This document shows positions 26,495-50,334 of a DNA stretch of 64,000 nt, piece by piece. The DNA is taken from positions 27,590,001 through 27,654,000 of the forward strand of contig OX637293.1 in NCBI GenBank assembly GCA_951799445.1. Reading direction: 5' to 3'. The notes under the pieces were generated by a model. It made no database searches. It was not told the origin of the DNA and was given only the letters and a program-made list of their open reading frames with translations. The translations under genes were made by a program, and so were the position numbers. The stretch's first letter is position 1. Each line of letters opens with the position of its first letter. The stretch comes from Pseudisothecium myosuroides. Lineage: Eukaryota; Streptophyta; Bryopsida; Hypnales; Lembophyllaceae.

Positions 26495-26503
26495 ACTGCC
26501 AAA
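26495..26503. repeat. left target-site duplication of the giant element
   Basis: ACTGCCAAA directly before the left terminal inverted repeat. It is identical to 50094-50102 beyond the right end. The last A could belong to either duplication or element, so the length is 8 or 9 bp. Confidence 0.7.
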
Positions 26504-26530
26504 ACATCATATTCATTAAAATGGGAGTTT
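26503..26530 (+). repeat. left terminal inverted repeat (28 bp)
   Basis: Starts AACATCATATTCATT and ends GGGAGTTT. It is the exact reverse complement of 50063-50090, 23.5 kb away. Confidence 0.85.
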
Positions 26531-26764
26531 AGGACCCTCCCAAAATAATATTGTCCATTTGTAGGCCGAGTAATTGAAATTGAGTCGAAGTAATTTATAG
26601 TTGAGTTGAAGGAATTTTAAGCTGAGGGTAGTTGGGTGTAGGAATATAAGGTGCAATTTCCATTAAAATGGGAGAAAGGGGCAGTCACAACACCTTGTAC
26701 AAACTACGGTTCACTATTGTTTAAGTGGTTTGGGTATATAAATTTATACTGTGTTACTTGTTGG

Positions 26765-26890
26765 ACACCAAGTCATGAGCTAAACAGTTGGTTGTAAGAA
26801 GCTATTCATCTCATTTAGGCGGTCCGGGTTCGATTCCCATTGACTTCGTATGAGCGGCTATGAGATGTACATGACTTGGTGCTGCTTAGT
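26765..26890 (+). repeat. tRNA-like, possible SINE fragment
   Basis: A box-A-like TGAGCTAAACAGTTGG (about 26777) and a strong box B GGTTCGATTCC (about 26827) are spaced as in tRNA-derived SINEs. A 12-bp inverted repeat, CACCAAGTCATG/CATGACTTGGTG, encloses them. I could not fold a proper cloverleaf, so this is not called as a tRNA gene. Confidence 0.4.
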
Positions 26891-27458
26891 GAGCTTTGCA
26901 GGCAGGAAAGTGGTAACAACCAACTAGCCCCATCCCCAGAACTGTGACAAGTGCTTAATGACTTAACAAAATAAAAAGTGGTCTAATCCACTACCACTTT
27001 TTCCTACTCGTATTCTATTTTCAAAGGAAATTTATAAAGTACACACATTCTGAAAATGATGCAAATATAGATACAAACAAATGTAATTGTAAATATATTT
27101 CATACTTTGTATGAATGCAGTTGCTTCGCAAGGAACTTCATACAATATAAAATAAAAGTTCCAATACAAATCAGTGAAATCAAATCATTCATAATATTCC
27201 AAACTACACTATATACTCTATAAAATCATATAAAATTATATATGTAGTTACGTAAAACCACGAAATAGAACATCAAATACAAACTATCAAACGTACGTTA
27301 TAACACTAAAAAGTATTTCCATAATACTCCGTAAATGCTCAATGAGAGGGTCTTGAAGCCAAACTATCTTTGATAATATCAACTTGAACCAATGGGATTT
27401 TATAGATAGGATCCACTTTGTCCTTCTTCACCCGAGACTTCCATGCCGTGAGTAGACC

Positions 27459-30167
27459 TCATGTGTCTTCCCAAACCGGATCCTCATCCTCATTCACTCT
27501 CCAACGCAATCCTCTGGCGGAGTCCCATCCAGAATAGGATGCCTGGATATCTCGCTCTCGTGCCGTGGGCTTCAAGTACTGAATGTGTACACAATTGGGA
27601 TGATTTGGGTTTGTAAAAGGATCGGACAAGGCTATAGCAATCCATACAGGTTTTGTATCCTCTGCTCGAAGGGCAACAAGATATCCCTTGTAAACATCAC
27701 GTGCCACTCGAAAAGATGGCAATGGGCGATTGCGGAGTTGCCCCACGAAGGCATCATCCTCAGCAAACTCCTCACGAACTTCAGCATCCTCATCCAACTC
27801 ATTCCCCTCTGTTGTTTCAATTCGAGAAGAAGGCCAAAAGCCATCCTTCAAAGCTACAGCCGGTTCGATCGGCTCCTTTAAAGCTGCATTCACAGCCCGC
27901 CAATAGAACACCAAGTGCTCAAAACATCTCCTGTACTCTCCACTTCCGTCTTCATCGCATAATGCCTCCCAATATTTGATGAACCCAGATAACCCTTTAT
28001 AAATGTCGTCCATGGCACGCATTGGAAGGTGTTCAACAGGCAGCGGCTCCCCACGAGGCCATAGACTATGTCCTTCGGAATCCTCTTGCCACAATTTGAT
28101 CCCTCCACCTTCTTATGGGAGCCAATCACTATCCGTGCAATACAACTTGTACTTCATGACAGGGACACCTGCAGAATTCAAATAAAACTTGAATTGTTGT
28201 GCCTTTGTATGACCAACAAGTGCATCCTCCCCTCCTAGAAGCGAGCTTTCTATGAAGGCTTTGAAATTAGGTACCTCTTCAATAAGGTGAGGAATTGTAG
28301 GAACGGAATCTACATCCATGAAGGACTTTATGAGGGATGGGATGGTTGGGAAGTTATCTTTTTTCAATTGCATACTCCATCTCCCAAATAAGGCGTCAAT
28401 GTCGTCATGCGTGTGACCGACTAACATGAAACTCACATGAACCTCACGAAAGACCTTCTTAGCAACGAGAAGGGACCAGAACGCAAACACAAATCTATTC
28501 TTGTTGTCCCCCGTGGCATTGTCCATTTGCACGTTCAAAACCGGAGGAAGAGGAGTTCCTAAAATTTCCACTTCCGGAGCAGGTCGAAGCGATGACTTGC
28601 ACATATCAGCTCCTTGCAATACTGCGTGAAATAAAGGAGCCGAGCCCGACCCAACAAACAATTCCCTTGAGGAATACTTTGGGGCCAGCTCAAGGTCCCG
28701 CAAGAGCTTTGCAAACGACCCCACCGTGTAGTTCGAGTCATGAAGGAAGATATCAAGTCCATAATGTGCATAACGCACATCCCCATGCCCATGGGCAATC
28801 ATGCCCGTCACGGACACCGGCAGTTTCATGAGTCCGTCCAGTTGCTTGCTTTTGTGCGAGAAGACAGGAGAAGCCGTTTTAGCATGATCCATTTTGTCAT
28901 GCATGATGGTCAAGCACTCAGCAAGGTACGCACTAGACCTATAGCGATTGGCATAATATTGGTCTCGGTGCGCCCGAGCTTTAGCCAAATGTTTCTCTAA
29001 GAGAAGGGTCCACTTCTGTTGTAAGCCAGCAACAGCAGTCCTCTTCAAAGTGTGTAACCTATCACATTTGGAACAGCGCGCAAAATTGTCTCCAGGCTTC
29101 TTGGCACTGAATTCAGAAAAGTTCAACTTCCTAATCTTGCTGATATTAGAAGCAGACACTTCTTTTAACCCAAACACAGCATTTGCTGCGTTGACCTCGG
29201 GTATAGTCTCCTTCCATTTAAAAGTAGCCGGTAACACCATAGACACCACCTTCTCCCCAGATGGAAGTGTATGCGTGCGATGTGGCATATGGTCTGCCGA
29301 CTTCCCAAGCACGCTTTTCAATGTCGCGGTGGCCTGCAGCGTATGCTTTCTGGTCTTCACCATGCCCAAATTATCGTGAGGCTGAGCTTGTTCACCTTTG
29401 GCAGCAAACCCTTGAAAACGGTGAAAGGTGCTCTCCGAGACACCTGCAATATGCCTCCATGCCGCCAAACAAACATCAGTCCCTTCGACAGTAACCACTC
29501 TCTTTCCTTGACCATTCCTATGGACTTGTCGATGTACGTCCAACTTCATGTGGTACCGGAATTCGAATGTTGATTTCTCGTACATATGCTCTCGAAATGC
29601 CCAAATTTTTTCCCTTGAAAAAGGTTGAACACAGTTACTAGAGCAACAAGACTTGCTCAAAACAGAATTGATTGACTCTTGGGAGAGCAACGTCTTAGAC
29701 TTCACACAGGTCTCACGTGGGGGATTTCTGATCAAGCTCGTATAAGGTCTTCCATGGGAAGTCGAAGGTTGCAACAGATGGGCTTGCCGACGGTTGTACT
29801 CGTCACGTAACTCATGATCGCGTAAGCTTGCCCCATTCAAGTACACCCTCTCAATGGGCCATGCTCGAAGAGAGTACCTCCACTCGTCCGGAACTTCTAA
29901 AACATTGAGCGATTTGGAGATTTGGACCGCAACAAGAGCATCTCCGAGGGGACCGCTAGAACCAAGAACAAGGTCGGAGTTAACACTGTGACAAATCCCC
30001 TCAGCCACGGGCGCAGAAGCCGCATTGTGCAGCTCCACAAGCTTCGTCATCCACAGCCGCCGAGGGATCCCTTCGCAGTCAGGAATGTTGACTATCTCTT
30101 CGGGAACATTTTCAATCTCCCCTTCATCCGATGAGTAATCTTGGAAGGGCTACTGATCGGGTTCCAT
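27459..30167 (-). pseudogene. DUF7869-type transposase-like protein, two in-frame stops
   Basis: One 903-codon frame runs from ATG 30167 (directly after a TTTGTGCAG splice acceptor) to TGA 27459. It is broken by TAG at 30150-30152 (codon 6) and TAA at 28113-28115. The best-known family pattern is LNVQMDNATGDNKNRF (about residue 545) followed by VGHTHDDIDALFGRWS (about 583), typical of the DUF7869 domain found in unclassified eukaryotic mobile-element proteins with an RNase-H-like pattern of acidic residues. Upstream are a Cys cluster (SKSCCSSNC), AWRHIAGVSESTFHRF (a helix-turn-helix-like stretch) and CSKCDRLH. The C-terminus, after an acidic linker, has a VYKGYLVALRAED...VWIAIAL pattern reminiscent of an SH3-like chromatin-reader barrel (inference). 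It is the best candidate mobiliser of the 23.6-kb element, at least ancestrally. Confidence 0.7.
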
Positions 30168-31370
30168 AATGTCTGCACAAATACCAGAGACAGTTAGAAG
30201 AAACCAATGCAAAACCAGCAGAAGTGACTTCCACCGTAAATCAAACACAGGTACTTCATAATCAACTCGACACGAGTTAAACTACATGCGCAGAAGAAAC
30301 AATGTTGACCTACTAACTCTCTTGACTATCATTAGAATACGTAGCATAACAGATTATATAACCGGCACAGGGTATGAGAAGAAAAAATTGACGTCCTCAC
30401 AGAAAAACATGTGCAGCTGAAGTCCACAGTGAACAAAACATTCCTATAATCCATCCCGAATTTCATCTCGCATCGAGTTAAGAATACTAATGGACAAAAT
30501 CATATTCAGTTAATAAATAAAATATCGAACGGTCGTCCAAAGAAGAAAATCTTTACAGAAGACTACATCTCCGACAAGTACAGATTTCACAACTACAGTC
30601 CTAAGGATTAACATGTCGCACACGAACAAGTCTCACAAGCAAAATCACATTTTCTCCTTAACAAAGAGATTACAGTTCCAACGAGATTTAACTTGATACG
30701 AGTTAAAGTATTTTGATCGACTTCTGGAAACTTTCTACTAGAACATATACGTTACAGATCCCCCAATATTTGATCAATACGAGGAATAGTAATTTTTTCA
30801 TCTACTAAGAGATAGTATTAGCCAAAGTGTACGGCGTAAATGATAGATCATAAGCAAACAACATTTAAAATGTAAGACACGTTTTTAATTGTATAATTTT
30901 AGAGTCAGAACGTCATCGGTTCACGTGGACGTTCGTAATCACTATCACATTCTACTCGATTCGAGAAGAACTACATTGCTGCAGCACGATAATATCCCAG
31001 ATTTATGTTTATTATTCTGCATTCCTCTAGTACACTTTTAACTCGCTTCGAGTTAAATAAATGACATTATGAACTCATAAAGTAAGCCTCACTGTCAACT
31101 GTTTATCTCGACTCGAGTTGACTTCAAATGCTGGAGCCCCAGACTTGTATCTTGTACTGTTTAGTTCGCAGAAAGTACATTTCAGAGATCTGAAATTGGA
31201 AAAATCATCGACTTATTCAGAGTCACGGTCATATTCCGAGAAAACCGGCGCAATTGTCGGGATCATTAATCTTTTGAAGCTCCGCACACGAGAAACTCCA
31301 GAATCGTAACGACAAGCAATGGAATCGCAGTAGATAACAGTGTTGCATAAGACACCCCAATCGAAAGGCT
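30168..31370. promoter_or_regulatory. 5' region of the DUF7869 gene with palindromic motifs
   Basis: About 1.2 kb upstream of the minus-strand gene. It holds at least six copies of the palindrome A(A/T)CTCG-NNN-CGAG(A/T)T or close variants, at about 30264, 30473, 30693, 30957, 31039 and 31107, for example AACTCGACACGAGTT at 30264-30278. A 5' intron probably ends at 30173. No other coding frame is supported. Confidence 0.65.
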
Positions 31371-31919
31371 TCAATTGAAGTACATCTTCTCTTTAGAATG
31401 CACTGGTTTCATCTGCATGGTGGCTAACATTAAAATATACGACACAGAATCGAAGTAGTTGTACTTCAGTACAACTTGCTTTATGAAGTCACTGGTTTTC
31501 AACTTCCAATACCCTAGAAACGACGGTACAGCAAACATGTAGACGCCATCAAAATCATTTACTGGTACCGTACATTTCTGAAGAACATAACCAAGAAATA
31601 CAATATGGAATCCACCAGACGATTCTAACGTGCAAAGAACATCTGCAGGCATCAAACCACTGACCGCAAGGGATCCACGAGTACACTTCACAAACGCACT
31701 CCACGCAAGCGCACGGACCACTTCAACAAGAGCGACCAGGTAACAGGAGAACAATGGACACAAAATGCTATGCCCAACAGGGATCACCATTGCAATTAGG
31801 CGGGAGGAATCTGGCGGGAAGAATTGGAGGGGAATTTCGAACGGCTCGGTGGGATATTTTTGTAAGGGAATCTCTTTTTCTTTAAAAGTTGCCTCTGAAG
31901 TCATTACTGTCAAAGGCAT
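31371..31919 (-). CDS. hypothetical 182-residue frame, doubtful
   Basis: Open from ATG 31919 (MPLTVMTSEATF) to 31371 in otherwise non-coding DNA. It contains a hydrophobic stretch (IAMVIPVGHSILCPLFSCYLVALV) that could be a membrane segment. I recognise no domain, and no splice sites or homologous copy in the window support it. It may be a chance frame in the regulatory region between the two divergent genes. Confidence 0.2.
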   Translation of the reverse strand: MPLTVMTSEATFKEKEIPLQKYPTEPFEIPLQFFPPDSSRLIAMVIPVGHSILCPLFSCYLVALVEVVRALAWSAFVKCTRGSLAVSGLMPADVLCTLESSGGFHIVFLGYVLQKCTVPVNDFDGVYMFAVPSFLGYWKLKTSDFIKQVVLKYNYFDSVSYILMLATMQMKPVHSKEKMYFN

Positions 31920-33060
31920 AATTGACGCTCAAAAGCTGCCACATCCCTCCTTCAAGCAAATAGAATTTCTGGCGCTTTAGTATGCCACAGTCCGTTTTTA
32001 GGAGCCCCAGTCTCTGACATGTGGCTACTAATCATTCCAGTTGGAACTATTAAAAGTGTTCGCATTTGACCAAGTTGTAAAGAAGATTCACATTGGAAAT
32101 GAGTACATCCCAGGTTAGGAAACTTCTTGTTTCTCATTAAAGAGAACTCTGTAAATGAAAAATTCTCACCATGTACGTTTCATTTAAGGCTCGCACACGA
32201 TTCTTTAAAGCTCGGAATGGTCCAGTTTCACGTACCGATTGTTAAAAATACCTTAGTGCAGGTCCCTTCTGAGACCTTTCCTGCAAATGTCGGCCTACAA
32301 ATCTGGGCTTCAGGGTATGAAATACAAAAGGCCCAAGCAGGGTTTAGGGTCTAGGGTTTCGACGTTACTACGACTCACAGTTTCATGTCTTTCACTTTCA
32401 CGAAAATGATGTAAACCAAAGTGATTTAGGGTACTCGAAATAATTTAGTTAGGACTGCTGAAGACGTTAAACTTCATAATTTTAGTACACTACTTAAAAT
32501 TAATATGAAAAAATTCACCCCTTGATGACCAACGCACAAAATTTTGGTCTACACAACACTTGGAAGTTCAAGTCAACTTTAGGAAGTTGCTATTTGAAGT
32601 ACTTTAGGTTCACAAAAAAATCAATTTGAAGTGTAGTTTTATTAAAATAATGAATGTCAATTTCAGAAATCACTAAATAGGATTTCCCTATTGGGATCCG
32701 GTAAGCATGTCCATTCACCTCCCGTACTATTTAGGGCTCTTGAAAGCTACTCTTAAACATTGTGCATGTTAGAAACAATTCACATTGGAAATTCACATTT
32801 TTATTTGTCATCAACAAAGAAGTTTGGAAGACCTAAACTTACTTTCATAATTTGACCCCCTCATAAATAAACTTTTCATCATTACAATCCATACCTAGAC
32901 AAATACATTTTCTAATTGAATGTCAATTTGAACATGTTATATTCGTAAGGTTACAACTTTTAAAAAATGGATACAACTTACGAAATCTTTTTGAGAAAAA
33001 TATAGTTATTTCTTGGACTCATGATTCTACAAGAATATTCTATTTATTCACATTTCAAAT
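31920..33060. other. non-coding stretch before the satellite
   Basis: AT-rich and without a convincing gene. A short telomere-like stretch (GGTTTAGGGTCTAGGGTTT, about 32340) is probably fortuitous. Toward 33 kb the sequence grades into degenerate satellite monomers. Confidence 0.5.
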
Positions 33061-36000
33061 CCAATCACCTTCAAATAAAATAAAAATAATCAGGTAAGAA
33101 ATGGACCTTGCTTGAAAATGGCTTGAAGTTGTAAAGCGTCATGGATTTTCATATGTAATGTTTAAATATCTATTAGGCCAGTTGTAATTACACTCAAGAT
33201 TAAGATTCCACAACTTTAAAATGTTTAATTTTTTCCATTTGAAATCCATCTTCTAGTAAATTAAAAGAAAACGGAAATGAAATGGGCCCTGGCCCCTTCA
33301 TGACCCAAATCTGCAAATGTCATGCATTTTCACAAGTAAATGTTTCAATATTGTTTATAGAAAGAGAAATTACATTGAGAGTTTACATTCCACAAGTAAT
33401 TTTAATTTATTCCCATTCGAATTCCATTTCCTTATGAATTAAAAAAAATTGCGAATGACATGGCCGTTGAATTTGAATGCCCAAATTTGAAAGTGTCATG
33501 CATTTTCACACGTCAATGTTTAATATTTTTCATAGAAGTTGGAATTCCACCTAGAGTTCACATTCCAGAAGAATTTTTAATATAATGTCATTTGAAATCC
33601 ATTTTCTTTTGAATTAAAAAAATTTGGGAGTGAAATGGCCTTTGCACTTCAATGGCCCAAATTTGAGAGAATAATACATTCTCACTCGTGAATGTTTCAA
33701 TATTTTTTATAGAAGTTGGAATTCCACATACAATTTACATTCCACAAGAATTTCTAATTTATTCCCATTTGAAATCCATTTTCTTATGAATCAAGAAAAA
33801 TTGGGAATAAAATGGCTTCGGGCCCCTTCACAGCCCACATTTGAAAATCTCATGCATTTCCACACGTGAATGTTTCAATATTTTTGATAGAAGTTGGAAT
33901 TACACCTAAGTTTACATTCCACAAAAAAATTTAATATAATTTCATTCGAAATCCATTTCCTTTGGAATTAAAAAAAATCGGGAGTGAAATGGCTGCTGTA
34001 CTTTAATGGCCCACATTTTAAGATGTCATGAATTTTGTACGTGAGTGTTTCAATTTTTTTCATAGAAGTTGGAATTACACCTACTTAGGAGTGACATTCC
34101 ACAAGAATGTTTAATTTATTCCCAATTGAAGTCCACCTTCTTTGAAATTAAAAAAAATTGGGAATGAAATGGCCCTTGGCCCCTTCATGGCCCAAATTTG
34201 AAAATGTCATGCATTTCCACACGTGAATGTTTCAATATTTTTGATAGAAGTTGGAATTACACCTAAGTTTACATTCTACAAAAAAATTTAATATAATTTC
34301 ATTCGAAATCCATTTCCTTTGGAATTAAAAAAAAACGGGAGTGAAATGGCTGCTGTACTTTAATGGCCCACATTTTAAGATGTCATGAATTTTGTACGTG
34401 AGTCTTTCAATTTTTTTCATAGCAGTTGGAATTACACCTACTTAGGAGTGACATTCCACAAGAATGTTTAATTTATTCCCAATTGAAGTCCACCTTCATT
34501 GGAATTAAAAAAAGTTGGGAATGAAATGGCTCCGGGCCCCTTCATGGCCCAAATTTGAAATTGTCATGCATTTTCACACGTCAATATTTCAATATTTTTT
34601 CATAGAAGTTGCAAATCCACCTAGGGTGAACATTCCACAAGAATTTCTAATTTATTCCTATTTGAAGTTCACCTTCTTTGGAATTAAAAAAAATTGGGAA
34701 TGAAATGGCCCTTGGCTTCTTCATGGCCCAAATTTGAAAATCTCATGCATTTCCACACGTGAATGTTTCAATATTTTTGATAGAAGTTGGAATTACACCT
34801 AAGTTTACATTCCACAAAAAAATTTAATATAATTTCATTCAAAATCCATTTCCTTTGGAATTAAAAAAAATCGGGAGTGAAATGGCTACTGTACTTAAAT
34901 GGCCCACATTTTAAGATGTCATGAATTTTGTACGTGAGTGTTTCAATTTTTTTCATAGAAGTTGGAATTACACCTACTTAGGAGTGACATTCCACAAGAA
35001 TGTTTAATTTATTCCCAATTGAAGTTCACCTTCTTTGAAATTAAAAAAAATTGGGAATGAAATGGCCCCTGGCCCCTTCGTGGCCCGAATTTGAAATTGT
35101 CATGCATTTTCACACGTCAATGTTTCAATATTTTTTTATAGAAGTTGCAAATCCACCTAGAGTGAACATTCCACAAGAATTTCTAATTTATTCCTATTTG
35201 AAGTTCACCTTCTTTGGAATTAAAAAAAATTGGGAATGAAATGGCCCTTGGCCCCTTCATGGACCAAATTTGAAAATGTCATGCATTTCCACACGTGAAT
35301 GTTTCAATATTTTTGATAGAAGTTGGAATTACACCTAAGTTTACATTCCACAAAAAAAATTAATATAATTTCATTCGAAATCCATTTCCTTTGGAATTAA
35401 AAAAAATCGGGAGTGAAATGGCTGCTGTACTTTAATGGCCCACATTTTAAGATGTCATGAATTTTGTACGTGAGTGTTTCAATTTTTTTCATAGAAGTTG
35501 GAATTACACCTACTTAGGAGTGATATTCCACAAGAATGTTTAATTTATTCCCAATTGAAGTCCAACTTCTTTGAAATTAAAAAAAATTGGGAATGAAATG
35601 GCCCCTGGCCCCTTCGTGGCCCGAATTTGAAATTGTCATGCATTTTCACACGTCAATGTTTCAATATTTTTTTATAGAAGTTGCAAATCCATCTAGAGTG
35701 AACATTCCACAAGAAATTCTAATTTATTCCTATTTGAAGTTCAGCTTCTTTGGAATTAAAAAAAATTGGGAATGAAATGGCCCTTGGCCCCTTCATGGCC
35801 CAAATTTGAAAATGTCATGCATTTCCACACGTGAATGTTTCAATATTTTTGATAGAAGTTGGAATTACACCTAAGTTTACATTCCACAAAAAAAATTAAT
35901 ATAATTTCATTCAAAATCCATTTCCTTTGGAATTAAAAAAAAACGGGAGTGAAATGGCTGCTGTACTTTAATGGCCCACATTTTAAGATGTCATGAATTT

Positions 36001-38290
36001 TGTACGTGAGTCTTTCAGTTTTTTTCATAGCAGTTGGAATTACACCTATTTAGGAGTGACAATCCACAAGAATGTTTAATTTATTCCCAATTGAAGTCCA
36101 CCTTCATTGGAATTAAAAAAAGTTGGGAATGAAATGGCTCCGGGCCCCTTCATGGCCCAAATTTGAAATTGTCATGCATTTTCACACGTCAATGTTTCAA
36201 TATTTTTTCATAGAAGTTGCAAATCCACCTAGGGTGAACATTCCACAAGAATTTCTAATTTATTCCTATTTGAAGTTCAGCTTCTTTGGAATTAAAAAAA
36301 ATTGGGAATGAAATGGCCCTTGGCCCCTTCATGGCCCAAATTTGAAAATGTCATGCATTTCCACACGTGAATGTTTCAAAATTTTTGATAGAAGTTGGAA
36401 TTACACCTCAGTTTACATTCTACAAAAATATTTAATATAATTTCATTCGAAATCCATTTCCTTTGGAATTAAAAAAAATCGGGAGTGAAATGGCTGCTGT
36501 ACTTTAATGGCCCACATTTTAAGATGTCATGAATTTTGTACGTGAGTGTTTCAATTTTTTTCATAGAAGTTGGAATTACACCTACTTAGGAGTGACATTC
36601 CACAAGAATGTTTAATTTATTCCCAATTGAAGTCCAACTTCTTTGGAATTAAAAAAGATTGGGAATGAAATGGCCCCTGGCCCCTTCGTGGCCCGAATTT
36701 GAAATTGTCATGCATTTTCACACGTCAATGTTTCAATATTTTTTTATAGAAGTTGCAAATCCACCTAGAGTGAACATTCCACAAGAATTTCTAATTTATT
36801 CCTATTTGGAGTTCAGTTTCTTTTGAATTAAAAAAAATTGGGAATGAAATGGCCCTTGGCTTCTTCATGGACCAAATTTGAAAATGTCATGCATTTCCAC
36901 ACGAGAATGTTTCAATATTTTTGATAGAAGTTGGAATTACACCTAAGTTTACATTCCACAAAAAAATGTAATATAATTTCATTCGAAATCCATTTCCTTT
37001 GGAATTAAAGAAAATCAGGAATGAAATGGCTGCTGTACTTTAATGGCCCACATTTTAAAATGTCATGAATTTTGTACGTGAGTGTTTCAATTTTTTTCAT
37101 AGAAGTTGGAATTACACCTACTTAGGAGTGACATTCCACAAGAATGTTTAATTTATTCCCAATTGAAGTCCAACTTCTTTGGAATTAAAAAAGATTGGGA
37201 ATGAAATGGCCCCTGGCCCCTTCGTGGCCCGAATTTGAAATTGTCATGCATTTTCACACATCAATGTTTCAATATTTTTTTATAGAAGTTGCAAATCCAT
37301 CTAGAGTGAACATTCCACAAGAATTTCTAATTTATTCCTATTTGGAGTTCAGCTTCTTTTGAATTAAAAAAAATTGGGAATGAAATGGCCCTTGGCCCCT
37401 TCATGGACCAAATTTGAAAATGTCATGCATTTCCACATGAGAATGTTTCAATATTTTTGATAGAAGTTGGAATTACACCTAAGTTTACAATCCACAAAAA
37501 AATTTAATATAGTTTCATTCAAAATCCATTTCCTTTGGAATTAAAAGAAAATGGGAATGAAATGAACCTTGGGTCCTGGATGGCCCAAATATGAAAATGT
37601 CATGCAATTTCACATGCGAATGTTTCAATTTTTTTTTGGAAGTTGGAATTACACCTAGAATTGAGAATGTACAAGAATTTTTAATATAGTTTCATTCGAA
37701 ATCCATTTTCTGTTGAACTAAAAAAGATCGGGAGTGAAATGGCTGCTGCACTTTAATGGCCCACATTTGAAAATGTCATGGAATTTTTATATGTGCATGC
37801 ATAAAAATTTATTTAGGAAGTTCTAATTGTTGTAGGCTTCATGTTCCACCACTATTTTCAAGTCTTGCCTATTGGAAAAGTCATCTTCACGTGAATTTAA
37901 AAAAATTGGGATTGAAATGGTCCTTGCCATTGAATGTCCCTATTCTGTAAATGTCATGAAATTTTATACATGCATGCAATTTTATTTAGGAAGTCGTAAT
38001 TACTCTAAGGCTTCAGATTAATCCACTATTTTAAAGTCTTATTGATTGAGAAATTCATGTTTACGTGAAATAAAATGAATCGTGAATGAAATGCGCTTTG
38101 TACTTTAATGGCCCAATCTTATAAATGTCATAGAATTTCATACGTCCATGCATAAAATTTTATTTAGGAAGTTCTAATTGTTCTAGGCTTCAAATTCCAC
38201 CACTATTTTCAATTTCTGATTATTGTAAACTACATCTCACGTGGAATAAAGAAAAAAAGGAATTAAATGGGCTCTGTTGTTTATGGCCAC
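33060..38290 (+). repeat. ~179-bp satellite in 536-bp trimeric higher-order units
   Basis: About 29-30 monomers, each with GGGAATGAAATGG, CATGCATTTCCACACGTGAATG, ATAGAAGTTGGAATTACACC, CATTCCACAAGAAT and TTGGAATTAAAAAAA. Monomer starts are about 176-180 bp apart. In the centre (34.1-37.5 kb) the sequence repeats far better every 536 bp, that is every third monomer: equivalent points recur at 34515, 35051, 35587 and 36123. Edge monomers (33.1-34 kb and 37.6-38.3 kb) are divergent. Nucleosome-length monomers with higher-order units are typical of plant centromeric satellites, but here the array is only 5 kb. Confidence 0.92.
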
Positions 38291-38559
38291 AAAAATCAAA
38301 TGTCATAAATTCATGAACTAGAATATAAGTTGTCCTATTTTGTATTTTCTGTCTACTGTTTTCAATGAATCCTTTTATGCAGCTATTGTAGGTGAAAATA
38401 ACATTTACAGGGATAAGATTTAATTAAAGAAGCAAATGTCAGTTATCCTTGTAATGGTATGATTTTTTATATTTAAATTTAACAACACCCTCTTTTTCTC
38501 ATTGTTTTTGAGATAATAAGAATATGTAAAACATTTATAATGTCTTTGAAAGTTTTAAG

Positions 38560-39470: not shown

Positions 39471-39565
39471 CCCCCACGGCTATAGGGTCCCCGATAATAG
39501 GGTCCACAGCTATAGGATCCTCGGCTATAGGGTCGACAGCTGCAGGGTCGACAGCTGTAGGGTCC
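39470..39565 (+). repeat. short 15-bp tandem repeat
   Basis: About six imperfect units of the type GCTATAGGGTCCNCG or GCTGTAGGGTCGACA. Confidence 0.7.
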
Positions 39566-39654
39566 CCGGTTTTTAGGGTTTCAGGGTGAACACGGAAGCT
39601 TTGTCTTGCACCTTCTCTTGTTTGTGGGTTCCTGGATTTTTTGTCCTCATTTTT

Positions 39655-39830
39655 GGCATGCTTGATTCTTGCTTGATCCCCGCTTGATTCCCGCTTGATT
39701 CCCGAATTCTGGCTTCGTGGTGGTGCTTCGAGCTTGCAGCGTTGATTCCAGCTTGATCCCCGCTTGATTCCTGCTTGATTCCCGAATTCTGGCTTCGTGG
39801 TGGTGCTTCGAGCTTGCAGCGCGCCTTCGT
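39655..39830 (+). repeat. 80-bp tandem duplication
   Basis: Blocks with GCTTGATTCCCGCTTGATTC, CCGAATTCTGGCTTCGTGG and TGGTGCTTCGAGCTTGCAGC occur twice, 80 bp apart (GAATTCT at 39704 and 39784). Short CTTGATTCC(C) units are also tandem inside each copy. Confidence 0.8.
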
Positions 39831-40189
39831 TCTTTTTTAAGTCTTCTGATTTGAAAAATCTCCCGCGCTCCGACGTCTCCGGTTTTCCGAGGTTTCCGGC
39901 GTGCGACGTTGTTGTAGCTTGCATCGGGTTGGGAGGCGTGGCTACGGCGTGAGCCAACGGGGGTGCGACGCGCGGCGACGGGCTGGGAGGTTCAGGGTCG
40001 AGCTTCCGCCATCGTTTCGTGGTGCGGTTGAGGCTTCCAACTCTTCAGGTGAGGCTTTCAATTCAAGTGTCGATGCGCATCGTTTTGGGGTTTGTTTTGG
40101 GGTTTGTTTTGGCAGTCGATAACGAGGGAAACAAATGCGCCATAGAAATGTGAGTTGGTCAGATTTTTGCAATTGTGCTTTAGGGTTTA

Positions 40190-40645
40190 AGCCGTGGAAC
40201 GATTCCGTGTTTGTGCTTCCAGTGGACAGTGTGACAGTGTGAGGGTCACGGTTGAACAATTCCGTGTTTGAGCTTCCAGTGGACAGTCAGAGGGTTTTAC
40301 GGTTTAACGATTCCGTGTTTGGGCTTCAGTGGACAGTGTGAGGGTTACGGTATCACGATTCCGTGTTTGTGCTTCAGTGGACACTGTGAGGGTTACGGTG
40401 GAAGGATTCCGTGTTTGTGCTTCCAGTGGACAGTGTAAGGGTTACGCTTGAACACTTCCGTGCTTGTGCTTCCATTGGAGAGGGTGAGGGTTACGGCTGA
40501 ACGATTCCGTGTTTGTGCTTCCATTGGAGAGGGTGAGGGTTTTACGGTTGAACGATTCTGTGTTGTGCTTCCATTGGAGAGGGTGAGGGTTTTGTTTGAA
40601 CGATTTAGTATTTGAGCTTCCAGTGGACAGTGTGAGGGTTTAGGT
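40190..40645 (+). repeat. ~50-bp tandem repeat, about nine copies
   Basis: Units with GAACGATTCCGTGTTTG, TGCTTCCAGTGGACAGTG and TGAGGGTTACGG, varying in length and sequence. They lie in the non-coding region upstream of the ParB/HAD-like gene. Confidence 0.8.
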
Positions 40646-41533
40646 TTGTGGCGTTCAGGTAATATTCATGTGGAGTCCAGGAATTGGTGAAAAGAGAAGT
40701 CATTGATCTCAGCGTTTAGGGTATTTTCATGCGGGAGCCTAGAAATCAATTTGTAAGAGAAGGCATTCATGTCTTTTTCGTTTTGATTCCCAGTCTAGTA
40801 GTATGCCGATTTTCAATGTTGACAGTCCAGCTGCTGCGTGATGAGTGAAAATGATCAATTAGGATTCGTTTGTTTCGTGGCAATTTCTACGTGGTCTGGA
40901 ATTGGGAATCTAAATTGAGAAACAATTTGTGTAACGTAAGAGTGGACAATTCTATGAATCAGTCGCTCGGGTTTGGGCTGCAAAGACTAAGTCCTGTCTT
41001 TCGGATTGCTTTACTGTAGGGTGTGGTTGCAGAGGAATTAACGATTTCTCATTGTCAATGCTCGCAGATTCCATGAGTTTTTTGGCAACTGCTGCTGCGC
41101 TGTTGTTTGGGTTGGAAGATCTGTTCAACTGTTAGCAGGTTTCATGATTTAATTGAGAAGAGGACGTGAAGGACCCAGCTCTCCCTGCACAGCTTAGAGA
41201 TCCAGAGACCTGCCGTCAAATCTTGTGTTCTCGGTCGGGTTGGAAGCTGCTTGAAGCTGGTGGGCACGCTTGCTCGGGCATTCTCCGGTAATGATTCACT
41301 GTTCCATTCTGTTGTTTGTCCTGTAAATGAAGACATTGATCTCTTTCCGTGCAGTTGTATTGAAATCCCGTGAACTGAGGCACTGGAACCCTGTAATGTC
41401 TCAAACCCCTCTCGATCAATGGCAGTTTACCTCGATCCGTCCCAATTCATCTCGACCGAAGTGTCTTCTTTCCCAAAACGAGGGAAACAAAAGATGTAAT
41501 ATGAGTAGAACTAGAACCCAGCCAATACAATTG
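40646..41533. other. non-coding stretch, possible promoter and leader region
   Basis: No repeated structure or convincing frame seen. It lies just before the dense palindrome cluster and upstream of the ParB/HAD-like gene, so transcription may start here, but I see no clear TATA box. Confidence 0.4.
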
Positions 41534-42720
41534 AACTATCTTCGAGTTAAATATTAGAGTCCTTGCCCAGTTATTTTAACTCGAGTCGAGCTAAACTGTC
41601 CAAAAACTTTTCAAACATTAAAAAAAAGAACAAAGAAGCTGCCCTACACGAAACCAGCGTCCAAAAATCCAACAATTTAACTCGAATCGAGATAAACATA
41701 GTAGAACGCACATAAAATCAGATAACTAACAACTAGATCCGACAAACAGAACATAATTTAACTCGACCCGAGATAAAATAAACCTAAGAAAAATGAGTCA
41801 AAGCCGTCATCTACTAACTCGACCCAAGATAAAACTGGTAGGACCAAAGACCACAGATACAGAAAGAGCTAAGCCTAATTTAACTCGGCCCGAGATGAAA
41901 TGTCCAAAAAACAACCGAGAACCTCCTGCTAATAAGTTCATAAGAGTAGAAACTAATAGAACGTAAGAAGAAAATAATACCTTCAACTTGGTCAGTCAAA
42001 GGCAGCCCTCACACAACTCGACAAAAGATAAAATGATGCATAGAAAGACTGTCCTCCGAAATCGAACCTTTAACTCGACGCGAGATAAACAACTGAAAAC
42101 GACCAACAAGAATCGATAAAACAAAGCCTATCCTAACTCGACCCGAGATAAAATGACATGAACAATCAAACAAGGACACCCTATTTTCTACTCGACCCGA
42201 GATAAAACCTCAGTGACTGGCTACAGAGAGAACGGATATTTCACGACCACCCAAACTAAAAGTAAGGCAAGCATAAATCAAACTGCATAACTCGAAACGA
42301 GTGAAATAAACTGTGAGCAAACGAGATGAGAAGCTAACATGCAATAATATACACAAAGAAAAAAATCAGATAAATACAACTCGGTCAGAAATATAGAGGA
42401 GAAAATCAAAATATGTAAGCCAGTAAATGAGTAACAGGAGTCAACAAGTCTGTTAAAGCTCTAAGAAGCCGCCAAAGAAAAACCATAAATAGAAGAACAG
42501 ATGGCCAAAATGAGAAGTCATCTCGAATCGAGTTAAAACATAGTGAAAACCATAGCGAAACCCAAAGTCAACTGGAAGCACCTAACTAAAGTAATAGGGA
42601 GGTAATATAGTAAAGACCATAGCATCTAGTTAACTCGAATCGAGATAAATAACCCAAAGAGCATCCGGAAAACCCAAACAGCTAAGCAAATGGTAGTCAA
42701 CTCGACTCGAGATAAACTGA
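41534..42720. promoter_or_regulatory. dense cluster of palindromic AACTCG-NNN-CGAGTT motifs
   Basis: About 14 copies, 45-110 bp apart, upstream of and up to 27 bp before the first coding exon: near 41577, 41669, 41756, 41818, 41881, 42015, 42070, 42133, 42192, 42290, 42521, 42632 and 42699. Consensus TTTA-AACTCG-NNN-CGAGAT-AAA; some copies have one degenerate arm (CCAAGAT, CAAAAGAT). Such a density cannot be chance. The form (6-bp arms, 3-bp spacer) suits a dimeric DNA-binding protein. Confidence 0.85.
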
Positions 42721-42746
42721 CAGATTGTATTTTCATTGCTGAACAG

Positions 42747-45700
42747 ATGGAATCTCACAAAGAGAAACTCGAAACACACTTCAAGGTCTTCAAAATACCC
42801 GAAGACAATGCAGAAGAATACGGGGACCTGGACGTATTGGGAGAATGCTGGGAGTGGAAAGAGCCCGATCAAGTGGAGTTCTGGACGACCATGCTTGTTC
42901 CAATGTCCACAGAGCTTAGCTTCATGACCAAGTACAAGAGGTCCGAAGCGAACCTGCCGGTGTCACTGCATGAGTCTATCAGAGAAGTCACGACAGGACC
43001 AGATGGGATTGTTTTTGTATGTTGCAAAACAACTGACCCCGACCAGCAAGAAGAATATCTCTTCTCGTACGTTGTACACACGCGGAAGACTATATACTCC
43101 GTCTCAACGTACTACACCAGCCTAACTAATTCAAGCTTCCAGGATCTGCAGAAAGACCTGGAAAAGAATATAGCTGATAAGAAGTGGGTCGCTAAAGACG
43201 GGGGGCCGCTTATATGGAAATCTCTGGCGTCCAAGCTCAACGCACTGATCAAGTCGTTCGACTACATGAAAGTCAGCGTGGACGAAAGACTGAAGAGGCT
43301 GGCTTCAATGTCCCTGACACGAGATTACAGCAGCCAAGGCGGGAGCCAGACGTCTCTGGTTTTGACAACGCCGGAGACCGATCGGAGCCACACAAAGAAG
43401 AAAACGACCGAGCGTTTCTCTAGAGGTAACCCAGCCGAGATCCCTCCACCAGTTGCAAAAGGCCGCAAGAAGAAAGGAGCTGCAGAGAGTGAGAAATCCA
43501 ATCTAGGCGAAACCAGCATGGCCTCCGAAATTCTCAACATACCAGAGGACATCGGAGGCCATGTAAAGGAAATAAAATATGTGGAGTCCTGCAAGTCCTA
43601 TGATGATTACTGGAAGGAGTGCATGGACTCATATGTCGAGGGGATTGGGCTCCACTTAAGAATCCCCTTGGACCAGCTAGAGACGCCTCCTCAAACATTG
43701 AACATCCGCGAGCTGGAGGAGGGTGGCGTGAAGAAGTCACTCAATTTCCTTCTGAACATGCCAGACCCAGACAAGAAGATGACCTTGTGCGTCATGCCTC
43801 AGGACCAGACGAAGAAACCAGGGAAGTTCGAAGACATCAAAGACTGCAAGTTCTGGATGGTCAACGGCCAGCATTGCGTGGAGGCGTCCAAACGGATGCA
43901 GAAAATGGACCAAATCAAGAAAGAGAAGGCAGATAAGTTCAAGGTGTGGGAGTGCTTTGTGGTTTGGAACAAAGACCATAGGATAATCCGGAAAATTTCT
44001 GCATATTATAACCGGGTGAACCATTTCCAGAACTTCATGCCAACATGGGCGACAAATATTATTGGGGCACGATACGTATGGACACAAATGGGTAGCCCAA
44101 CTCCACCAAGGGAGGCAACCGAGTTGGGAAAACCGGTTAGGCCCATAAAACAAACATCCAAGGATGTGAACAACGCTATCCAATTTGCGGTAATGTTTTA
44201 ACTCGGCTCGAGTTGAATAGTGCTTCCGAATTTCTATGCATGTCGGCTCGTGATGAACCTTCGTATTTCCTGTTTATGCTTCAAGTTCATGCAGGACTTA
44301 TCTCGATGCGAGTTAAAACACCTTACACCCCTTTACTAACCTGATCTCAGTACCTGTCACCAGGACTTCAAAAAAGCTGTCAAGCTCCGGTTCTCCATGA
44401 TCGACGCGAAGAGAAATCAAAAGGATGTGAACCAAAAGAAAGATATGGACATTCACAACGAAATAAAGATTATTACGGCGGCCCCGGATGTCTATGACTT
44501 GTGGAGTCAGGTCATCTCCAGTCATGCCCAAGGCGAGCTCATTAGTCCCGACTCCATGACGAATTTCAAGCACACCAAGGGCTGGGACGCAGAGAAGGAC
44601 GGAGTGATAACCCGAGAGTTTTTCAAGTGGATGGGGAACTGCTCGGAGTCCGACCTGAAGCGCCTGGCACTTCATTTGTTGAACAGGACCAAGGATTGGT
44701 CCTTGCCGTACCCAAAGGTCACCATGAAGTCCACCAAGAAGGTGATCCCCGAAACTTGTAACGCGAAGGAGTGGCTTGAGAGGTGCAAGCGGAAGACGGC
44801 TGTGAAGAGGCAACTCCATACCCTGAAGCCGGCTCTCAAACTCTATGATAAGGAAGGCAACTACAAGAAGAAAGAGTGGAAGAAGTTTAAGAAAGATTAC
44901 AACGTCACAAGGGCCACGAAGAACACGCTTGTCACTGCACCTGGGGAGCAGTTCTTCTCGCTGTCCAAGTTGCCTTCCAACAAGTTCAAGACTTTGGGAG
45001 AGCTGTCTGGGATAGCAAAAGAGTTCTTCAATGTCTTTCTGGAGAGCAAGGGCCGGTTTGTGAAGCCGGAGGTGAGGGCGTTCTTCAGGCCCTACAAAAT
45101 GAAGGATGATGTCCTTGGAGAGTGGGACACCAATGTGTGGAGCGAATCGAAGAAATCGACTTTGAAGTTGGCTGTCATGGACTTCAGAAACATCCCGGGG
45201 ATCGATGACAAGGATTTGAAGTCCGAAGCCGACGCATATTATGAGTCGTTCCTCTCACTTCTGGAGACATATGTGGACCCTGCTGTTACCGACCCTCAGG
45301 TTTGGCTCTGGATCTGTGGGGAGAAGGAGGTGGAGGTCGACCTACGAAACTACATTCGGGTCTCCTCGTTTGGGACGTCGTATTCGGTGCAGTATGCGGA
45401 ATACATTCTTGGGCCGTTTGAGCGGGTTGCAGACGTCCCAGAGAGAAGCAAAGGGGCCAGGGATCCTATTCAATTGATCTTCTTGGTGAAGAATGGGATG
45501 ACGCCAAAGACAACAAGGATTCCAAGGCGTTTTACTGTTGCCCAGAAGTCCAGGCACAACATTCGCAAGCAGGGTTATGAGATTGACTACAGGTTGTACA
45601 ACACGGAGCTTCGCATGGAGTTCTACATGAAGGTGTTTGACCTGTTTGTATCACCCCGAGAGGAAGTTCTGTCGATTTTCGCTGGAGGGAAGATTACCTA

Positions 45701-48700
45701 TGCCGCCTGGGTATGTTCTAGTCTGTCTCTCTTGTTTTTAACTCGACCCGAGATGAACTTCAATTAAGTGTATTTCTAGATTTTAACTCGCTTCGAGTTG
45801 ATCTTCAATAACGTTTCCTGCTCTGGTTTTGCAGATGAAATCCATCGATCACTACGTGATCGACGACAGTTACAACAAGGACGACTTCCTTAACCTCTGC
45901 GTCAGGTCCGAGAACATGGACAAAGACGACTTCCTTGACTCGCACTACTTCCTGGACGAAGATGATTTCGAGCCTAAACAGGGCAGAGCGTCATCGTCCT
46001 CCAGGAAAGGGAAGGAGCCCGCTGACGTTGAGGAGGAAGATGTCGAGGAGGCCTCTCTCGTAGACACCACTGTGAATGTGTCCTCACAGGCACAGGAGGA
46101 AGGGAAAGAGGGGGTGGATGCAGTGGATGCAGTTGTGGAGCTAACACCAACAACTGGTCAGGGCTCGGCAGCCATTCTGGAGACTAGCGACATGCGTGGT
46201 TCATCCGGGTCCTCGGCACAGCGTGGGCAAACACCGGTATCCAACCGTCGTGCCTCACAGAAGAGAAAGGCGCCAGCCGCAAGGAGGGATTCACCTGAGA
46301 AGCCTAAGCAATGGAAGATTGACCTCGTGCAGCAGCAAATGGACGAGAATGCCAAGTTGAGGGAGGAGCAAAGGGAGGAGAACAAGAGGGCTCGGCTGGA
46401 CACGAAGGAAATGATAAATGAGTTCCTGAGGTCACTTCCCGCCGTGGTGGCCACCACAATGCTCACGGTGAAACCTGTGCTGGCGATTGAGCCTCCATCG
46501 GATTCTGCCCCCTTACAGATAGCCGATCACGCTCACGGGTCAGCTGGCAGCAAGAGGCAGGAAGAAACTGGATCTGGGACAGTTTCTGGTAGGCAGACGG
46601 TGTCGGATCGGGTTGTGGTTCAGCAGTCTCCAGATTCTGCTTCGAACAAGGCAGAATCGGTCCTTGTCCAAGAAAAAGGCTTAGGCGAGCACATGCAGGT
46701 GGATCCGCTTGTAACAGTGGTGGTGGACGCGGCGCCAGCACAACCTCTTCGTCTTGACACGCAGCAGGAGATCGATGTCGCTCGTGACTCGGAAGGAGTA
46801 GAGGCCGAGCAGTCACAGGACCCTGTGACTGGTAATCCTCCAGGTTGATCCTTGTGACTCTCTGCCTCTATTTCAACTCGATTCGAGTTGAAATCTCCTT
46901 CCGTTCACTTGATGTAGTTTGTCATGTACTTAGACAGGGATAGTTCGAGTAGGACTCAAGTTATGTATATTTGTATATACTCCTCAGTTGGAGGGTTTTT
47001 CTAATATACTACTGTTTTACAGTTTTTTTTCCCACCTTGAATTTGCAGATCTTGTAACAGGGACAGAGTGCGTTCCAATTTTGTCAAACTCTGGTGTGAA
47101 TGATGCTCCCCCGTTATGTCCTGAGCATGTCTGCACCGATCCATTGTATCCACATGGTGAATCCCTTTTAGGCACGCTTCAAACAAATCCATCAATGTTC
47201 CCCGAAGAAGGTGCAGATGGTATTCCAGACGAAGCACTTCTAGAGTTGCACATCCCTGCTTCCGAATCATTGGTCAATGCAATCAGTCCTTCCCCTAAGA
47301 CTGAGGAGGTGAATCCCATAAGTTTTGTTTCTTGGTTTCTCTCCTAGGTTTGTGTAATGGTGTCTTCTGCCTTGACATGTTTTCTTCCTTTTGGGATTAT
47401 CGGTGCACTTTCATTTTATTTTCGTACGCAGAATGTGCTAGACAGTGCATCGGTTTAACTGTCTGCACATTTTGTTGTAATTCGTGGACAGGCTAGCAGT
47501 GAGGCCATCGTTCCAAGTGGTGAGGTGGAGGACCAAGTCCTCCCTCCATTCACGTCCGGGGAGGCAAGAAAATGGCTCAATGTCGTCCTAGATCTGAATG
47601 GGGTACTCTGCGTATGTGAAGATAAGAAGTATAATATCAGGGAGAGCAGATACACCAAACCCGAGGAAATTTATCCGGGTTTAGACACATTCATTGTTGG
47701 GGTCAAGAAGGTCATAATTTGACCTCACTGTCTAGCTGTTCTACGAGAGTTATCCAAGATCGTTAACCTCTCCGTCTGGAGCTCCATGAAGAGGTCAACA
47801 GTTAGGGATGTATGCGGGTACTTGTTTAAAGGTTTAGACCCCCCCTTGCATGTCTTTGGACAAGAGCAATGCGACATCTTGAAGTGCAAGCTAAAAAATG
47901 GAAGGCCAAGTACCTACAAGGTGAAGGGAACAAGCAAGGACTTGTTCCTAAAACCGTTGGAGAGGTTGTTCCGGATGAGTGATTCCGGGTTCACGACTGA
48001 AAATACACTTATAGTGGACGACAGTCCTGCGAAGCACGTGACGAATCACCCAAAGAATGTGATTCTCTTCGAGTCGTGGTCTTACAGGGGGTACGGAGCG
48101 CTGGATGGAATTCTCGTTGACCATCTGCTTCCTTATATTCAACGCTTGCATGCAGCTAGGCCTATTGAATTGTATCCCTTCCGGAGAGACAATATATTTG
48201 GGCGTTTGCATCTTTTTTATGAAGAGGATCAAACCGAGTTCAAAGAACTCACAGAGGCAGTGGAGTACTCCAATAGTTTTTTCCTTCAGTGTAGTGTCGG
48301 GAATCCTAATTACTCGTCGGCGTTTGAGGAATCCAGGAGACCCCAGCATAGAGAGGTCAAAGTCGATGATTTTTGTCTCTTGTACTATCACGTATTGGAA
48401 TCACTATGACTTGAACTCCTTGGAATCTCCATGTAATAGTCCATATCCAGTAACGTATTGGTTGTTCTGGGATTTGTTATTGTATTGTGTTCATATGAAT
48501 ATTGTTTTTCTTTTGCCCTTATGATTTTTTCTGTGTGGGTATGTCTGTATTTTGTACTACTTCTAATGTCTTCATTTCTTGCCGTGGACAGTTGATCGTA
48601 TCCTATCATGGATTGAAGCATGTCTTGTATTCAGAGCTAACTGCGCAATCAACAATGGATTTCTCAATGATGCCTATCGATGATGGAGTTGTCGATAGTC

Positions 48701-49306
48701 CACCTAAGCGAAGAAAGCGAGCTCACCCTATGAGCTCGCCTTCTTTGCTCAAATGTTGTCCACTATCAAACTCTCCACGGGATTATTCAAGTCGGAATGT
48801 AGTGAAACAAAGGAAGCTCTATGACGACGAAATGGCTATAAGGCCTGCCATTCAGGTAACGGGATGGAATCCTTGTAGTTGATAATCCACCCAATATTTG
48901 TTACTGTGTATTTTATGTTTTAAGATGTTTGTGTAAGGTTTGATTTCATTTGTTTTTTCAGGGTGACCACGTAGGCCATGAGTCTATTGGCTATCGCGTC
49001 ACGGATTCTCGAGATTCAACGTCTCCTAGATTCAATGGTCGAGAGCAAACTGTATTACGTAATGTTCTTCAATGTGATTTGCCTAAATGCAATTCAATAG
49101 GCGTATGATGGTGTGAACAAAAGCCTCGTGAAGTTAATCCTGTATTGGAGCATCCAAGCCGTCGTCCATGGGACGCTTAGGAGTTGAGGTCCTTGAAGAA
49201 ACAAAGACGAGAGGCATTGAGTCAAAGATCGACCAAATTTACTGGATACAATCGAGGACCTGAGATATTTGAAGCTATGAAAAAGATGGAAATGTCCGAG
49301 TCATAG
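42747..49306 (+). pseudogene. seven-exon gene: ParB-like, degenerate methyltransferase-like and HAD (FCP1/NIF) domains
   Basis: Exons: 42747-44189, 44364-45710, 45835-46843, 47049-47308, 47492-48391, 48592-48855 and 48962-49306. All phases agree and sum to 1856 codons. The ATG follows directly on a TGAACAG acceptor. Around residues 300-470 a ParB-like pattern is seen (IPLDQLETPP, NIRELEEGGV, FWMVNGQHCVEAS, YNRVNHFQNFMPTW). In exon 2, LAVMDFRNIPGID and LFVSPREEVLSIFAGGK sit where DNA methyltransferases have DPPY and DPFAGSG, so the enzyme would be degenerate. Exon 3 is low-complexity. Exon 5 has HAD motifs LDLNGVLCV, VWSSM and LIVDDSP as in plant FCP1/NIF-like proteins. In-frame stops: TGA 47720-47722, TGA 49106-49108, TAG 49178-49180. 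The first sits where the family has Arg (RPH). Domain assignments are by eye. Confidence 0.7.
44190..47048 (+). promoter_or_regulatory. palindromic motifs inside introns 1-3
   Basis: Intron 1 (44190-44363) has two copies (about 44204 AACTCGGCTCGAGTT and 44303). Intron 2 (45711-45834) has two (about 45741 and 45785). Intron 3 (46844-47048) has one (about 46874 AACTCGATTCGAGTT). I found none in the exons. The range given spans the three introns, with exons between them. Confidence 0.75.
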
Positions 49307-49425
49307 GAATTGTACATAAGATAGGATAGCTCTCTTACAAAGAATGTAAATGTGGATAGGGTTGAAGACTATTATAGAGTAGAGAAGGTGCCACGGTGTG
49401 ATAAGTGAGAATTTGTAAGGAAAGT

Positions 49426-49723
49426 ACCACAGTGTTTGAAGGATGAAATGAACTGCAAAGTGTAGGTAGCAACTATTTCCACAGAGGATATGAACTCAAG
49501 ACTGGAACTTAGAAAATTCTAGAATCAAACTATGTCATTCTTCTTCACAAATACTCTTATAGACTGCAGTTTACACACTCCGGTGTGTAAGAGTACTTGT
49601 CAAGGAGAGTGATATAGCTTGTTTCTATACTTTTCTAAGTTTCGATCTTGACTTCATATCCGCTGTGGTTATAGTTGCTACATATAGCTTGCAATGAATT
49701 TCATCCTTCAAATACTGAGGTAT
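49426..49723. repeat. ~300-bp imperfect foldback (hairpin)
   Basis: The left arm (from GTTTGAAGGATGAAATGAACTG, near 49434) and right arm (to CATTTCATCCTTCAAATAC-like sequence near 49715) are imperfect inverted copies about 145 nt long, meeting at ACACACTCCGGTGTGT near 49581. Matching pairs along the arms include GTAGCAACTAT/ATAGTTGCTAC, GGATATGAA/TTCATATCC and ACTCTTA/TAAGAGT. It lies just downstream of the ParB/HAD-like gene. A foldback MITE or a hairpin RNA source are both possible. Confidence 0.75.
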
Positions 49724-50062
49724 CTTTTTTATAAACATTTATTGTCAACAATGTATCATTTTCTTTGGAAGGGTGCGCACGTGTTTAGCGTAAACAGTTA
49801 ACTACTAGTAATGCATCAGTATAGGAGCTTAGTTGCTTTAACAAAGTCACATGTCAGTGTGATTGTACATTCAGTGATATATACATTCAATGATTACTTT
49901 CATGAAATTGCAGTGTATTTTGTAAGTAATCTTTGGTATGTACAAATTTTGTTCCTATATGCATGCTTCCTCTGTCACTGCATTGCAAGTTCTGTATATA
50001 TAGAAATCTAATTCTCTTGAATTTATGATTTGTAGGGTTCCCTATACTCCCATTTCCCTGGA

Positions 50063-50090
50063 AAACTCCCATTTTAATGAATATGATGTT
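50063..50090 (-). repeat. right terminal inverted repeat (28 bp)
   Basis: Exact reverse complement of 26503-26530. CCA follows and then the duplication ACTGCCAAA at 50094-50102. Confidence 0.85.
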
Positions 50091-50334
50091 CCAACTGCCA
50101 AATTACTCTATGTACTAAGAATTCAGCCTCATTGCTGCAATATGTATCACACTCCAAAATGAAAGTTTATCGAAATGATCAAACTTCAAAAGTCTAGATG
50201 AAAAGAAGAGTATGGCTCAGTAGCTAAAGTCCACCGCACAAACTATGGCCACAATACTATGTAAGACAAAACGAAGTAGGCATACAATAGAAATGAAAAT
50301 AGAAAAATGAAAGAAGAACATGAAACGCACTCAC

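Follow-up and report, generated by a model that had tools for sequence, protein, structure and literature searches.

A Giant Transposon with Terminal Inverted Repeats, Two Divergent Genes and a Private Non-Coding Dyad in the Moss Pseudisothecium myosuroides

Introduction

What keeps large transposons active in plant genomes that silence them is an open question, which we approach here through one locus of the moss Pseudisothecium myosuroides and the families related to it. The window (the whole stretch of DNA analyzed, 64,000 nucleotides of contig OX637293.1) comes from an assembly of 388 Mb in 222 contigs (G000), and it holds a 23.6-kb element that raises three questions: whether it is a mobile unit, what moves it, and what the short dyad-symmetric motif (the dyad) scattered through its non-coding DNA is for. 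A sequence-only reading had proposed a transposon with perfect terminal inverted repeats (TIRs), two genes and a private palindrome, and that outline holds. Our best explanation, to which we give a probability of roughly 0.8, is that the element is a young and giant cut-and-paste transposon of a moss, probably Sola-like, in which a DUF7869 protein is likely the transposase and another element-encoded protein may read the dyads. The features of the element are collected in Table 1.

Element Borders and Target Site Duplications

The two ends of the element, 26503-26530 and 50063-50090, are 28 bp long and 100% complementary, just as had been predicted, and they form the sole 100% pair among the 15 inverted-repeat pairs listed for the window. 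Across the assembly, we found the left 100 bp of the element at 40 scored places (the best 40 of 104 candidates) and its right end at another 40 (the best 40 of 196 candidates). In eight of the left ends, including that of the window copy, homology starts at the terminus AACATC (AGCATC in one of them), and the flanks are unlike. Left and right ends found on one contig in the correct order and orientation were matched up: of the 40 ends on each side, 26 had a partner, and the other 14 were left out. The 26 paired copies, the window's included, span between about 17 and 75 kb. A search for paired inverted termini elsewhere, the lack of which would by the sequence-only reading have refuted the element, therefore returns 25 loci besides the window.

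Each of the 26 paired copies has a target site duplication (TSD) of exactly 4 bp, taken as the longest match between the end of the left flank and the start of the right flank; the window copy has CCAA. Mispaired end combinations gave a 4-bp match in 8 of 650 cases, all of them from four TSDs that occur twice. The 8-9-bp TSD proposed earlier is rejected: the repeated ACTGCCAA is seen at the window site because the target itself carries a tandem ACTGCCA, at that site alone. The right border had likewise been set 3 bp too far, at 50093 instead of 50090. At the insertion sites of the 26 paired copies, unlike flanks meet inverted termini at exact borders, the pattern of a cut-and-paste TIR element, and we conclude that the element has moved as a TIR-bounded unit, repeatedly and in recent times, duplicating 4 bp of its target.

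The copies are also similar to one another: seven of them show 1.3 to 3.8% divergence from the window copy in the aligned non-satellite parts. Among CpG positions, about 5% differ between copies, twice the fraction at the remaining positions, which is what would be expected of methylated DNA.

A Private Dyad in the Non-Coding DNA of the Element

The element contains 21 CTCG-N3-CGAG cores and the remaining 40.4 kb of the window none, so that the palindromic motif is indeed private to the element here; cores with spacers of 0, 1, 2, 4, 5, or 6 occur nowhere in the window. A looser pattern, AACTCGNNNCGAGTT with at most two mismatches, has 25 matches, two of which lie outside the element, against 1.64 expected. 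The complete motif is a 21-bp dyad with a 3-bp spacer, the arms of which reach TTTAACTCG-ann-CGAGwTRAAA; beyond the arms, identity is 0.26-0.28 where 0.26 is expected, apart from 0.32 immediately next to the right arm. All 21 dyads are placed outside the satellite and, by our exon model, outside the coding exons; the last of the eleven dyads upstream of the second gene would become coding if translation starts at the in-frame ATG at 42690.

Comparison of the copies shows that the dyads change less than the DNA around them, with non-CpG changes in 13 of 1652 cells of the dyad arms (0.0079) versus 200 of 7138 cells of the nearby flanks (0.0280). The cores were picked for being intact in the window copy, a selection that reduces the change to be expected at the core itself and leaves the outer arms unaffected. 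Of the other copies, five were read over all or nearly all of their length and contain 17-19 cores each; a copy with a large deletion has 7, and 9.5 kb of another has 6. The flanks of eight copies (about 42 kb) contain a single core. Like the targets of VANC proteins (see Discussion), the motif is specific to its family and concentrated in the non-coding DNA of its own element.

Dyads in Related Families

We examined the stretch 5′ of the DUF7869 start in ten more copies, and then in seven copies of more distant families. Seven of the ten belong to a second subfamily, which aligns with the window copy over the coding start alone (72-73% identity) and contains 8-9 dyads per copy (at most 4 mismatches of 18; 100 shuffles of each gave means of 0.00-0.04 and a maximum of 1). 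Since these seven copies are 97-99% alike, they count as one family. An eighth copy (82% identity) aligns partly further and has 6 dyads, and the last two, which could not be aligned with the window copy, gave no dyad in the same search. The dyad strings were chosen after the sites had been seen, and the shuffles, here and below, are therefore not independent tests; the dyads in the unalignable DNA of the second subfamily are the stronger argument.

In distant families the letters of the dyad differ, most clearly in L001 and family D, in both of which the two half-sites changed together. L001 (CADCWO010000071.1) is a 4.3-kb contig that encodes a protein 57% identical to the window DUF7869 protein; it contains six sites of the form TTTAGCTCG-N3-CGAGCTAAA with at most 3 mismatches (0 in 200 shuffles), and three of the six also match the window dyad with 2-3 mismatches. 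The five copies of family D (L081, L083, L085, L087, and L089) each have 11-13 dyads TTCACCTC-N5-GAGGTGAA, mostly 60-61 bp apart in tandem units that are 76% alike outside the dyad (in the one copy measured), a regular spacing that is not seen in the window family. The same script reports many 8-bp dyads at other spacers in family D, partly the same palindromes, and in its five copies the shared sequence continues past the TIR-like stretch. Sites of the form TTYANNTCG-N3-CGANNTRAA number 4 in the one copy of family E and 5 in the one copy of family F; many have unlike halves, TTCAACTCG on the left and TTCAAGTCG when read from the right. With at most 4 mismatches, the two copies match the window dyad at 5 and 6 places.

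L001 is filed under a cyanobacterium (a metagenome genome), yet it encodes a moss-type transposon protein; the contig is probably contamination.

The Divergent Gene and a Candidate Reader of the Dyads

The second gene had been noticed as a divergent gene, and it can be modeled as a multi-exon gene, for which we chose the splice sites; an extra exon is possible downstream, at about 48594-48855. Exon 1 may encode a ParB-like region: it contains the motif MVNGQHCVEAS and matches the DUF6551 profile at E 0.06, while no named ParB PHROG was matched. The structure model has low confidence there, too low for the lack of a ParB chain among the structural matches listed to speak for or against such a region. 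The protein further shows the fold of beta-class DNA N6-adenine/N4-cytosine methyltransferases, in which the canonical catalytic motif IV is [DNS]PP[YFW]. Among the 40 relatives that cover the strand we assigned to motif IV, 38 have D[FL]R and the others EFR and NFR, none of them canonical, and [DNS]PP[YFWH] is absent throughout three long relatives that were scanned. Because of this non-canonical motif, methylation by the protein is doubtful, and reading or shielding of DNA seems as likely; the methyltransferase part may be a reader rather than a writer.

A dimeric protein encoded by the element might recognize the dyads of its own family in the 5′ regions and introns of the element, and this recognition might keep the element expressed or marked; it would be an accessory system by which the element addresses itself, with VANC anti-silencing as a parallel. 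We are less sure of these two steps than of the transposition steps described below. The product of the second gene would be the most likely reader, since 16 of the 21 dyads surround this gene, and since self-binding was suggested by the authors who described a similar element in Ectocarpus (PMC12477816).

The dyads could instead be bound by the transposase, or by a host factor, with the divergent gene unrelated to them. Upstream of the DUF7869 gene, dyads occur in the window family and its second subfamily, in families D, E, and F, and in L001 (a contig too short to show a second gene), and other plant transposases have many internal sites per element. The clustering around the second gene speaks against this alternative, as does the lack of any dyad near the termini of the window copy, where the closest lies 3.2 kb away at the right end and 3.8 kb away at the left; and a host factor alone would not explain why the letters are family-specific. 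We regard this alternative as possible but doubtful. A more specific version of the element-encoded reader, which we offer only tentatively and think rather unlikely in its full form, is a self-addressing system like ParB/parS: a ParB-like head on a methyltransferase-fold body without the canonical motif would load as a dimer at the family's dyads and spread or loop over the non-coding DNA, and the FCP1-like domain would license transcription against silencing, with L001 and family D cross-unresponsive, and E and F in between.

The DUF7869 Protein as a Probable Transposase

The window protein matches the DUF7869 profile (PF25273) with an E-value of 6.4e-44, in agreement with the gene type first assigned to it, and the longest open piece of its frame is 28113-30149 (678 aa). 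Its predicted structure has an RNase-H-like core, in which conserved aspartates fit a DDD triad. We consider the protein to be probably the transposase of the element, of the DDD type. It would likely bind the TIRs, excise the element through its DDD RNase-H-like active site, and insert it with a 4-bp stagger; broken copies, such as the one in the window, would likely be mobilized in trans.

If DUF7869 were instead an accessory or captured gene, the enzyme that moves the element would be an unrelated transposase, encoded at another place in the genome and acting in trans. Two observations count against our assignment and in favor of this alternative: the structural match of the DUF7869 model to DDE enzymes is middling, level with unrelated rows (Foldseek gave no match at E ≤ 0.001), and the frame of the window copy is broken. 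They are set against the conservation of DUF7869, which exceeds that of exon 2 of the second gene (best identity among full-length-like top rows, 74% versus 57%), an uninterrupted frame in 13 of the 48 scored copies (the best 48 of 1,319 genome candidates, from several families), the conserved aspartates, and the presence of the gene together with a related terminus (7 mismatches of 28) in families E and F. On these grounds we find a captured gene improbable, and PF25273, a domain of unknown function, probably belongs to a transposase that duplicates 4 bp of its target.

Searches of viral contigs found no DUF7869 relatives (1 pattern-matching stretch with the single protein and 20 with the alignment, none confirmed), and P0122 had no match to phages by tblastn; with no confirmed relative in either, a viral or phage origin of the two genes was rejected. 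A sequence search of solved structures returned two weak unrelated matches for each protein, Rfam returned 0 matches, and a literature search on DUF7869 returned no paper.

Internal Repeats, Genomic Distribution, and the Rest of the Window

It is very improbable that the 23.6-kb unit is a composite, that is, an ordinary DNA transposon with other elements and the two-gene module inside it by chance: two copies (C5:32.776 and C4:6.84) do hold extra inserted stretches, and the satellites resemble acquired repeats, but copies inserted at unrelated sites contain the two genes, the dyads, and the satellite again, and in Ceratodon the relatives of the two genes have neighboring locus tags. Satellites inside the element had been expected, and they are present (33220-37780 and others; Table 1). 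Near the right end, a stretch of about 307 bp (49421-49727) also matches itself imperfectly in inverted orientation (79%), in other copies too; it could form a long hairpin or be a nested small element.

Contig C11, which makes up 4.4% of the assembly (16.9 of 388 Mb), contains 10 of the 40 scored left ends, 13 of the 40 scored right ends, and 13 of the 48 scored DUF7869 genes, counting the top-scoring places alone (a binomial was used for the ends). It may be a sex chromosome.

Outside the element, inverted repeats in pieces (3632-9045 and 20922-22789, 82-96% complementary) flank a frame at 15462-17645 that we take, from its motifs, to be Ty3/gypsy-like. Two long frames on the forward strand (60944-62790) resemble parts of another mobile-element protein, with no Pfam family above the cut-off, and two arrays of 22-bp repeats with nearly the same unit lie at 53793-53910 and 58057-58358.

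Table 1. Coordinates of the element and its features in the window.
Feature	Position	Strand	Remarks
Whole element	26503..50090		23,588 bp
Left TIR	26503..26530	+	28 bp
Right TIR	50063..50090	-	28 bp
TSD, left copy	26499..26502		CCAA
TSD, right copy	50091..50094		CCAA
DUF7869 gene, probable transposase	27351..30167	-	Broken by three in-frame stops
Five dyads 5′ of DUF7869 gene	30266..31117		Cores 30266, 30467, 30955, 31042, 31107; one decayed, 30690
Internal satellite	33220..38209		Period about 179/357 bp; in other copies too; no dyad core within
Internal tandem repeat	40227..40640		Period 49 bp
Eleven dyads 5′ of second gene	41580..42711		
Second gene, exon 1	42747..44189	+	Putative ParB-like region
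Second gene, exon 2	44364..45710	+	DNA adenine/cytosine-N methyltransferase fold
Second gene, exon 3	45835..46831	+	Low complexity
Second gene, exon 4	47049..47308	+	Putative splice sites
Second gene, exon 5	47492..48408	+	FCP1/NIF-type phosphatase domain; one in-frame stop in window copy
Five dyads in introns 1, 2, 3 of second gene	44202..46887		Cores 44202, 44302, 45742, 45787, 46877

Discussion

The dyad provides a candidate target for the accessory proteins of large transposons: a 21-bp non-coding sequence that is kept where the neighboring DNA is unalignable and that has other letters in distant families. With such a candidate at hand, the idea of self-binding becomes testable by simple binding assays, and the system opens an approach to the recognition by a transposon of its own DNA.

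The TSD narrows the classification. Mutator/MULE elements have TSDs of about 9 bp, hAT and KDZ/Zisupton elements of 8 bp, and EnSpm/CACTA elements of 3 bp with CACTA-type ends, while piggyBac and Kolobok use TTAA targets. By these definitions, a 4-bp TSD in 26 of 26 pairs rules out Mutator/MULE, hAT, and KDZ/Zisupton, and, together with the ends AACATC, EnSpm/CACTA; TTAA is found in 0 of the 26 TSDs, which excludes piggyBac and Kolobok. Sola elements, which Bao et al. are said to have described in 2009, reportedly have 4-bp TSDs and DDD transposases, and the TSD length of the moss element agrees with this. Carey et al. reportedly found, in 2021, an undescribed cut-and-paste superfamily on the sex chromosomes of Ceratodon, to which the moss element may be related; here the termini are over-represented on one small contig, C11.

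The layout of the element has a precedent in the brown alga Ectocarpus, where Sola1-1_Ec32, a Sola1 DNA transposon of 21.5 kb, carries on the opposite strand a gene for a 1104-aa protein with ParB-like and DNA-methyltransferase parts; in the portions of that account consulted, its authors suggest that accessory proteins of this kind act on their own element by binding and modifying it, and they name no target site (PMC12477816). The moss element resembles it in size and in having a probable transposase gene and an opposite-strand gene of the ParB-like/methyltransferase kind (the ParB part being putative here), and on the basis of the TSD and this layout the superfamily is probably Sola-like. 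It differs in belonging to a land plant, in the FCP1-like phosphatase domain added to the accessory protein, in the non-canonical form of the presumed motif IV, and in its dyads, of which those portions make no mention. The two-gene layout is thus already known from Sola1-1_Ec32, and what is new here is the dispersed 21-bp dyad in non-coding DNA. Literature searches, mostly of abstracts and covering few subscription papers, brought no such land-plant element to notice.

For the dyads themselves, the comparison is with the VANDAL elements of Arabidopsis, which are Mutator-like, and with the motifs of their VANC proteins, which are 8-9 bp long and arrayed in one orientation. VANC21 binds the non-coding parts of VANDAL21 at a motif of nine bases, and VANC6 has targets with other motifs, according to the portions of the report consulted (PMC5735166). 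As far as those portions go, the two systems share a private short motif enriched in the non-coding DNA of the element, a difference in motif between related families, and a dynamics of tandem units, seen in family D of the moss element. In contrast to VANDAL/VANC, the moss element has a dyad of 21 bp around a 3-bp spacer, its TSD is 4 bp long, and the candidate for binding is an unrelated protein. By analogy, the family-specific dyads resemble the co-evolving VANC targets of Arabidopsis, which are their nearest worked-out counterpart.

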